Below are positions 36,431 to 37,767 of a stretch of 64,000 bases of DNA, piece by piece (the first letter of the stretch is position 1; the number at the start of each line of letters is the position of its first letter). The notes below the pieces were generated by a model that saw only the letters and a program-made list of their open reading frames with translations, was not told the origin of the DNA and did not search any database. The position numbers and the translations under genes were made by a program. Origin of the DNA: Planctomycetota bacterium (GTDB lineage Bacteria; Planctomycetota; UBA1135; UBA2386). The DNA lies in assembly GCA_947444055.1 (NCBI GenBank), contig CANEYR010000010.1, positions 1 to 64,000 on the forward strand, given 5' to 3'.

Positions 36431-37288
36431 ATGCTGCGCGTTCCCCTGATGACCTTGTTGCTGCTGGCGCCGCTGGCCGCGCAACTGGTGACGACGGATG
36501 CGGGAGTGATTTCGCCGGAGCTGCCGACGGTCAAGGAACGGCTCGAATGGTGGTCGCGGGAGCATGCCGACGAACTGCGCGCCATCACGCGCCTGTCGTG
36601 GGCGCCGGAACGGCGCCTGCAGCTCGACCTCGCGGTGCCGTTGGTCGCGCGCACGGTGGCGGTGCCAAGCACCGGCGGCGAATTGCGCGGCCGCCAGGAA
36701 GGACTGGGTGATCTCACGTTCGGCGCCAAGTGGGCGCTCGTGCGTGCCGACGACGTGATGCGTTCGGATCGGCTCTCGGTGCTGGCCGAGGTCTCGCTGC
36801 CGACGGGGGATGACAACGCCTTCGTCGATGGCGTCGATCTGGGACCGCGGGCTGCACTGGGTCTTGGCACGTTCGGTGGCTCGTTGGGTCTTGGCTACAC
36901 GCTCGTGCGCGATCGCCATCGCGCGGCGGTGGCGTTGCGCGGCAGTGCGTTTGCGAGCGACGACGGGTTTGCGCCGGGCGAGGAGCTCGCGCTCGACGTG
37001 GCCTGGTGGGTGCGCTTGTCGCCGCGCGAGTTCTTGCCGGAGCACACGGGCCTCGAATGGCGCGGTGTGCTCGAAGTGCTGTCGCGCTGGCAAACTGATG
37101 ACACGGTGCGTGCAATCGATCAGCAGAACGGTGGTCGCGAGCTGTCGTTCGTGTTCGGTCTGCAAGCCAACCTCAATCTGGCGACCAGTTGTGAAGTGGG
37201 CGTCGTGGTGCCGCTCGACATCACTACGGGTTCACCATTCGGCGAGCCTGACTTCGGGCTGCTCTTCTCGTTCCGGGTGTCCTTCTGA
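36431..37288 (+). CDS. outer-membrane beta-barrel protein (phenol-MetA-like fold)
   Basis: 285 residues from ATG 36431 with a signal peptide (LRVPLMTLLLLAPLAAQL). Alternating hydrophobic and polar strands follow (LQLDLAVPLVARTVAVP, DLTFGAKWALVR, LSVLAEVSLPTGDD, ALGLGTFGGSLGLGYTL), ending in an aromatic C-terminus (FGLLFSFRVSF) as expected for an outer-membrane barrel. The pattern with SLPTGDD resembles the MetA-pathway (PF13557) transporter-like barrels. Its stop TGA shares its last base with the ATG of the selenoprotein gene, so the two are co-translated; it may be the outer-membrane partner of that lipoprotein. Confidence 0.75.
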   Translation: MLRVPLMTLLLLAPLAAQLVTTDAGVISPELPTVKERLEWWSREHADELRAITRLSWAPERRLQLDLAVPLVARTVAVPSTGGELRGRQEGLGDLTFGAKWALVRADDVMRSDRLSVLAEVSLPTGDDNAFVDGVDLGPRAALGLGTFGGSLGLGYTLVRDRHRAAVALRGSAFASDDGFAPGEELALDVAWWVRLSPREFLPEHTGLEWRGVLEVLSRWQTDDTVRAIDQQNGGRELSFVFGLQANLNLATSCEVGVVVPLDITTGSPFGEPDFGLLFSFRVSF

Positions 37289-37767
37289 TGCGTTCCCTCA
37301 GTCTGTTGGTGTGTGCATTGTCTCTCGCGGCCTGTCAGGTCGCGTTGCCCAAGGCCACCGCGGCGCCTGGTCACGGGCTGCAGCGGGTGTGGATCGAAAC
37401 GCTTGGGCTCGAGTGATTGCCTTGAGCAAAGGCCGTGGCCGACGGCCTGCGGCGCCTGGATGGCGTCGCCAATGTGGAAGTGGACCTGCAAGCGAACGTG
37501 TGCACGGTGACGCCGACTCCGGATCGCTTGCCAGACTTGGCTGGGTTCCCTGCGGCCGTGCACGCCGCTGGCTATCGCCCAGCTCGGATGTGGGTGCAGG
37601 TGGTGGGCACGGCATCGGCAGCACCGGATGGGGGCCGACAGTTTCAGATCCAAGGGTCCCCGCTGTGGGTGCGGCTCGTCGGTGATGGGGACGTGACGAA
37701 GGCCTTCGTGGTGCGTTTGGAACACGCTCCGCAGTTGACGTTCGTGCCTGACCGCGCACCGCGCTGA
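37288..37767 (+). CDS. predicted UxxU selenoprotein: HMA-domain lipoprotein
   Basis: A single frame of 159 codons with two in-frame TGA codons, 37414-37416 (codon 43) and 37423-37425 (codon 46). Residues 1-16 are a lipoprotein signal (LSLAAC, C16). From about 36 to 100 the text follows MerP/HMA domains: RVWIETLGLE-U-LP-U-AKAVADGLRRLDGVANVEV, then a strand and an AAVHAAGYRPARM segment. In MerP the site is GMTCAAC followed by the same number of residues to the EGV-KV-V strand, so both TGA codons fall exactly on the two metal-binding cysteines. The frame stays open afterwards to a TGA at 37765. The C-terminal 50 residues form an extra beta-rich part. It is co-translated with the barrel gene. Standard annotation would split it. 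Selenocysteine is inferred. Confidence 0.75.
37430..37448 (+). promoter_or_regulatory. candidate bacterial SECIS stem-loop 1
   Basis: AGGCCGT (37430-37436), loop GGCCG (37437-37441), ACGGCCT (37442-37448): a perfect 7-bp stem with a 5-base loop beginning with G. The loop starts 20 bases after the first TGA and 11 after the second. Spacing and loop G fit the usual bacterial SECIS criteria for the first TGA. In a GC-rich gene, stems arise by chance, so this alone is weak. Confidence 0.5.
37450..37468 (+). promoter_or_regulatory. candidate bacterial SECIS stem-loop 2
   Basis: CGGCGCC (37450-37456), loop TGGAT (37457-37461), GGCGTCG (37462-37468): seven pairs including one G-U, with G at the second loop position. 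The loop starts 31 bases after the second TGA, within the usual 16-37 range. It could serve the second selenocysteine. Confidence 0.45.

Follow-up and report, generated by a model that had tools for sequence, protein, structure and literature searches.

Paired hairpins behind two close UGA codons in HMA-domain selenoprotein genes of Planctomycetota

A gene from a member of the Planctomycetota appears to encode a secreted, lipid-anchored HMA metal-binding protein in which both metal ligands are predicted selenocysteines (UxxU), and its two UGA codons are followed by two adjacent hairpins which, on comparative sequence evidence, are selected as RNA structure in the UGA-bearing genes of the family. 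That the hairpins serve UGA recoding is supported by compensatory change in the UGA genes, by absence of the pair from 43 CxxC controls and by the presence of the selenocysteine (Sec) machinery. We propose, with a probability of about 0.5, that the two hairpins make up a composite SECIS element, in which hairpin 2 would bind SelB and hairpin 1 would act as a spacer that is folded at the first UGA (UGA1) and melted at the second (UGA2). Such an element would be a conserved and compact RNA answer to the recoding of two close UGAs, and the arrangement extends to 44 genes (23 aligned and 21 found with a model). The gene lies in the window, by which we mean the whole stretch of 64,000 nucleotides that was analysed (Table 1).

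Table 1. Features of the selenoprotein gene and its upstream neighbour, in window coordinates
Feature	Coordinates	Strand	Remarks
Upstream gene, outer-membrane beta-barrel type (Phenol_MetA_deg)	36431..37288	+	Pfam PF13557, 29.5 bits, cut-off 22
Selenoprotein gene	37288..37767	+	ULPU instead of CxxC in HMA domain; stop TGA 37765-37767
UGA1, predicted first selenocysteine codon	37414..37416	+	in frame
UGA2, predicted second selenocysteine codon	37423..37425	+	in frame
Hairpin 1	37430..37448	+	stem 37430-37436 with 37442-37448, 7 bp; loop GGCCG 37437-37441
Hairpin 2	37449..37469	+	stem 37449-37456 with 37462-37469, 8 bp; loop UGGAU 37457-37461

The gene, its product and its homologues

Translated with TGA as Sec, the gene gives a 159-residue lipoprotein made up, in order, of a lipoprotein signal (LAACQ), an HMA domain with the motif ULPU and, at the C-terminus, a beta domain of some 60 residues. 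The Pfam HMA profile (PF00403) matches over the ULPU motif with an E-value of 4.8e-8 and 33.7 bits, above its gathering cut-off of 24.8, while the CopZ, MerP and UxxU_metal_bind (NF041115) profiles of NCBIfam all score far under their own cut-offs on the window protein. An AlphaFold2 prediction from 16 aligned sequences (pLDDT 90.2) has the HMA fold with both ligands in the usual loop, followed by the C-terminal beta domain; the PDB structures nearest to the predicted fold are HMA7, MerP and CopZ domains, with TM-scores of 0.8 to 0.9 on the target. The stop TGA of the upstream beta-barrel gene and the ATG of the selenoprotein gene overlap by one base, and by eye a similar beta-barrel gene is present at the corresponding position in 18 of 22 loci; the two genes may form a metal or metalloid handling unit. 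Neighbours of the outer-membrane beta-barrel type occur with both subfamilies of the selenoprotein gene.

The gene could be a broken one, with TGA codons that are genuine stops or errors of sequencing. We consider this very improbable, as 23 homologues carry both TGAs, protein similarity continues past them to the gene end and the genome holds the full Sec machinery: a tRNA-Sec with anticodon TCA (74 bits, cut-off 47), SelB (349.5), SelA (458.3) and, near SelA, SelD (290.3, cut-off 125).

Homologues were collected by searches of 101, 154, 154 and 392 genomes, of two neighbourhoods of 149, and of the 392 with the second subfamily, together with a pattern scan of contigs. The result is 28 distinct rows (23 UxxU, 3 UxxC and 2 CxxU), the 23 double-UGA homologues all being Planctomycetota. 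The first site is UGA in the UxxU and the UxxC homologues and a Cys codon in the two CxxU ones; the second is UGA in the UxxU and CxxU homologues and a Cys codon in the three UxxC ones. The contig scan, with a TGN pattern, gave 19 stretches, namely 13 homologues and 6 chance matches; 11 of these 13 belong to Planctomycetota, Phycisphaerales or Brocadiia, and the other two are genes of genomes G178 and G151, of the window's phylum. Wider sampling round G178 and G263 yielded few new genes, and with NF041115 no double-UGA gene was found in six named genomes outside Planctomycetota. Copies are excluded from the 23 (L085, which is the same gene as L125, as well as L018-L021, L025 and L062-L069), and double-UGA rows of other layout (L176, L179, L074 and L075) are kept apart from them. 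In a tree of the 28 rows and five more, which has many weak forks, the single-UGA rows fall among the UxxU rows, with 5 changes; this nesting suggests that the single-UGA rows arose by loss of one UGA.

Two hairpins selected as RNA structure

The first-pass annotation had described two 7-bp hairpins separated by one base directly after the second TGA. Both hairpins are present, except that the stem of hairpin 2 has 8 bp and that there is no base between the two. The distances that the annotation gave agree with the coordinates, loop 1 lying 20 nt after UGA1 and loop 2 lying 31 nt after UGA2; the converse distances, which it did not mention, are 11 nt from UGA2 to loop 1 and 40 nt from UGA1 to loop 2. 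Hairpin 1 begins 13 nt past UGA1 and 4 nt past UGA2. Because GC-rich sequence folds easily, the annotation had also called for chance to be tested, and the hairpins beat shuffles and recodings in the window gene and, on average, recodings in the 23 homologues. Folded alone, the 48 nt reach -29.2 kcal/mol (z -3.34), which none of 200 dinucleotide shuffles equalled. Against recodings of the window gene that preserve the amino acids, hairpin 1 has a z of -2.21 (p 0.035) and hairpin 2 of -2.81 (p 0.005), and the fraction of 1000 such recodings with both hairpins together is 0.000.

Across the 23 UxxU genes the same kind of recoding gives mean z values of -2.20 (hairpin 1) and -2.31 (hairpin 2), with p below 0.05 in 17 and 19 genes respectively. 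A strict count, which admits only stems of 6 bp or more in a single fixed register and, for hairpin 2, also requires a SelB-type loop, finds hairpin 1 in 17/23 genes where 2.21 are expected after synonymous recoding, hairpin 2 in 21/23 (0.52 expected) and both stems in 16/23 (0.08 expected). As controls, 43 CxxC HMA domains were picked by pattern from fetched loci. Here the mean z is only -0.64 and -0.49, p falls below 0.05 in 5 and 1 of them, and 2.88 of the 7 pairs of hairpin 2 are formed, as against 6.70 of 7 in the double-UGA genes; the two hairpins were not found as a group feature of these 43 controls. One control, L104, has a single SelB-type hairpin at +40.

Pairing and covariation in the alignment point the same way. 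Over 15 pairs and 23 sequences, 91.9% of the 345 cells are paired, compared with at most 45.5% for slid partners, and the covariation score is 0.441, compared with at most 0.108 for slid partners and a shuffle mean of 0.219, one control of this test being blind to kinship. Hairpin 1 is paired in 95.0% of cells with double-sided changes at 4 of its 7 pairs, and hairpin 2 in 89.1% with such changes at 5 of 8; the search for compensatory changes in homologues that the annotation had recommended thus ends with double-sided changes at 9 of the 15 stem pairs. Neither of the outcomes that it had named as refuting, TGA-bearing homologues that lack both hairpins or shuffled controls that fold equally well, was seen in the main family. 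RNAalifold, unprompted, returned the same two hairpins. A measure of further pair types did no better than shuffles, 104 of 500 being as high. Clearest of all is the pair between the second position of codon 13 and the wobble base of a Val/Ala codon, which is formed in 21/23 sequences (GC 9, AU 6, UG 3, UA 2, CG 1, unpaired 2); none of 100000 permutations, which likewise ignore kinship, scored as high.

These results bear on the objection that the hairpins are a by-product of GC-rich codons and a conserved RLDGV motif, with no selection on the RNA. Hairpin 2 does overlap the conserved R-L-D/E-G-V of HMA domains, and for one gene (L035) recoding alone forms the stem of hairpin 1, with 6 bp or more, in up to 31% of cases. 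Such an origin is contradicted by the recoding controls, the CxxC controls and the covariation, and hairpin 2 is present also where the protein sequence is RQVGV or RRSGV; we hold it to be extremely unlikely.

The loop motif and its distance from the UGAs

The bacterial SECIS model of bSECISearch, as given in the available part of PMC13188914, calls for a G in the loop, usually as N-G-[G/U], a stem of 4-16 bp, an energy of -7.5 kcal/mol or lower and a distance of 16-37 nt from the UGA, a range that holds for most but not all bacterial SECIS elements. Hairpin 2, with 8 bp and -16.1 kcal/mol, lies within the limits of stem and energy; as to distance, it falls in the range from UGA2 (31 nt) and beyond it from UGA1 (40 nt), while hairpin 1 falls in the range from UGA1 (20 nt) and short of it from UGA2 (11 nt). 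The loop of hairpin 2 reads N-G-[G/U]-N-N in all 23 double-UGA genes and in 3/43 controls (p 7e-15), whereas loop 1 carries this motif in 1/23. A G in the first two positions of both loops, to which the annotation had drawn attention, holds for the window; in the family, loop 1 has it in only 11/23 genes, compared with 28/43 controls. Even so, hairpin 1, whose loop varies, has a stem no less firmly kept than the stem of hairpin 2.

A scan for SelB-type hairpins places one at +40 from UGA1 (+31 from UGA2) in 23/23 double-UGA genes, and one anywhere in 3/43 CxxC controls. The constant +31 is not independent evidence, because the protein fold fixes the distance from the second ligand to the GV motif. 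Among HMA genes of this phylum with one UGA, in a UxxxC motif, 12/16 have a SelB-type hairpin at +24 or +25; the remaining four comprise one gene with the hairpin at +18, another with it at +46 and two in which the criterion detects none. From these loops it seems that the local SelB wants an N-G-[G/U] loop, which hairpin 1 does not offer. The single-UGA proteins with U-x-x-x-C (L050, L052, L059, L083, L168-L175 and L177) are mostly MerP-like, and the three of the UxxxC kind that were scanned passed no NCBIfam cut-off.

A proposed composite SECIS and its rivals

The entry to the mRNA channel of the ribosome lies about 10 nt past the A-site codon. As hairpin 1 starts 13 nt downstream of UGA1 and 4 nt downstream of UGA2, it would be folded at the one and melted at the other. 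While UGA1 occupies the A site, hairpin 1 would sit just outside the ribosome and remain folded, hiding 19 nt, so that the loop of hairpin 2, which would carry the complex of SelB and Sec-tRNA, would be effectively 21 nt away and not 40. The ribosome's advance of 9 nt, to UGA2, would draw the 5' arm of that hairpin into the channel and melt it, leaving loop 2 at 31 nt and again in range; a single SelB site would thereby be within reach at both UGAs. The 16-37 nt range is not absolute. When the A site is set on UGA2, equilibrium folding forms hairpin 2 with P of at least 0.8 in only 15/23 genes, which counts against the composite model; set on UGA1, it likewise does so in 15/23.

The first-pass annotation had favoured one SECIS per UGA, and this is the main rival: hairpin 1 would recruit SelB for UGA1 (+20) and hairpin 2 for UGA2 (+31), hairpin 1 at +11 from UGA2 being melted there. 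What has stood of this proposal is the tie between the hairpins and UGA recoding, and both loops do lie 16-37 nt from their own UGA, with the UxxxC hairpins at +24 or +25 near where hairpin 1 stands. The division of labour fares less well, since the motif is all but missing from loop 1, while hairpin 2 and most of the UxxxC hairpins retain it, and a G at the head of loop 1 is no more frequent than in the controls. We rate this reading as possible but doubtful.

A third reading lets hairpin 2 alone serve both UGAs, from 31 and 40 nt, and makes hairpin 1 a pause at UGA1 or a guard against mispairing. It would account for a hairpin 1 whose stem is conserved and whose loop is free, and when that hairpin's 5' arm is occluded, the probability of hairpin 2 drops under 0.8 in 8/23 genes. 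One gene of other layout, L176 (UMGU), lacks hairpin 1 and has a single SelB-type hairpin, +31 from UGA1 and +22 from UGA2; this favours the third reading too and may be an alternative means of serving two UGAs. Against it, hairpin 1 would lie only by chance just beyond the ribosome at UGA1 and just within it at UGA2, and 40 nt exceeds the published range; we think it improbable.

The natural single-UGA variants make the mechanism open to reporter testing and already separate the readings in part. L037 (UMSC, UGA1 only) keeps both hairpins (z -2.29 and -2.44), its branch being 0.63 changes per site long, and favours the composite SECIS over one element per UGA. L036 (ULPC), also with UGA1 only, keeps both hairpins as well, but its stems and loops are identical to those of the window, so that it may have lost UGA2 recently. 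L153 (CPIU) retains hairpin 2 (z -2.24) with a hairpin 1 not above chance (z -0.62), which fits the composite and the one-per-UGA readings alike. L038 (CLFU, no UGA1) is awkward for both: its hairpin 2 is complete (7 of 7 pairs, z -1.18), and near the place of hairpin 1 it has a hairpin of another register (z -2.14). L095 (UAVC) has neither hairpin and a SelB-type hairpin at +17 instead, an arrangement apparently its own, which without hairpin 2 and by means of a different hairpin agrees loosely with one element per UGA. Five single-UGA rows are too few to decide, and we therefore leave the composite SECIS at the even odds given above and one element per UGA well below them. Counted against the composite SECIS are the L038 hairpin, the L095 layout, the small number of deciding rows and, among the genes described below, L215, L226 and L227 as well as L211 and L214.

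Two HMA-like lipoproteins, L074 and L075, have U-x-U and then NDKA, with a first hairpin that is longer and bulged. In L075 loop 2 lies 46 nt from UGA1 and hairpin 1 takes up 28 nt, for an effective distance of 18; in L074 no SelB-type hairpin was found by the criterion. The two genes agree loosely with the spacer model.

Further genes found with a covariance model

When a covariance model of the hairpin pair was run on 392 genomes, 53 of them yielded a total of 65 matches with E up to 0.001. In every one of the 35 best, UGA occupies ligand sites of an HMA-like stretch; these genes comprise 18 training rows, 15 further double-UGA genes and 2 single-UGA genes (L037 and L153). Of the next 30, 17 were examined and 6 of these are double-UGA, for a total of 21 further double-UGA genes, UxxxU motifs among them. 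As these were chosen by a model with the loop of hairpin 2 built in, their loops are not independent evidence. Hairpin 2 of SelB type is absent by the criterion in 3/21 (L215, L226, L227), and a hairpin 1 of 5 bp or more in 2/21 (L211, L214). When ten of the further proteins were scanned with Pfam HMA, five were above the cut-off, three below and two without a match; none of the ten passed an NCBIfam cut-off. The covariance model also finds unannotated genes for double-Sec metal-binding proteins in Planctomycetota. That a SECIS of this kind, a folding ruler with one SelB hairpin for UGAs 6 or 9 nt apart, is general in the double-Sec HMA genes of the phylum has, in our estimate, a little less than an even chance.

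Several genomes of the phylum have UGQU HMA domains behind a Pro/Glu-rich linker (L204, L206, L208, L209, L222, L226, L227). Proteins with U-x-x-x-U (L202, L205, L213, L214, L216, L231, L201, L210, L211) have the loop of hairpin 2 at +31 from UGA2; this spacing of two Sec was not seen in the accessible portion of a review table. In genome G196, contig C223, two double-UGA genes (L212 and L088) stand 1.6 kb apart, near 106652 and 108223.

Comparison with known systems

HMA selenoproteins with UxxU are already known: the available text of PMC13188914 has NF041115 (UxxU_metal_bind, "metal-binding (seleno)protein"), with the motif UxxU and two Sec. The window protein has the HMA fold with UxxU in common with this family, whose profile matches its residues 32-81, but at 22.9 bits against a cut-off of 95 it is not a member by NCBI's rule, and it differs in its lipoprotein signal and its C-terminal beta domain. 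UxxU also occurs, according to the accessible parts of the sources, in a putative mercuric reductase (PMC9312934) and in a peroxiredoxin-like family (PMC2398784). The selenoproteins of two planctomycetes have been described (PMC4807772), and the term "heavy metal" was not found in the main text of that paper. Reviews, in the parts available, list bacterial proteins with two Sec and do not explain how two close UGAs are decoded. No description of a tandem or composite bacterial SECIS was found in the literature searched, in so far as it was accessible, subscription journals being mostly outside it.

Compared with the CxxC domains of MerP, CopZ and other HMA proteins, the window protein has the same fold and the same place for the two ligands; it differs in having predicted Sec for both Cys, and the CxxC genes tested are without the paired hairpins. 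In eukaryotes, SelL has more than one Sec per protein, with SECIS elements in the 3' UTR that act at a distance. Selenoprotein P, whose mRNA carries two SECIS elements (PMC8659212, available in part), is like the window protein in having more than one Sec; unlike the hairpins of the window, its SECIS elements lie in the 3' UTR and act at a distance. As to the RNA, the comparison is with the bacterial SECIS, with E. coli fdhF as its type: hairpin 2 shares the short loop with G and then G/U, the GC stem and the site within the coding region, and it stands 31 nt after UGA2. The window departs from that type in placing hairpin 2 40 nt from UGA1 and in adding an adjacent hairpin with a conserved stem and no loop motif.
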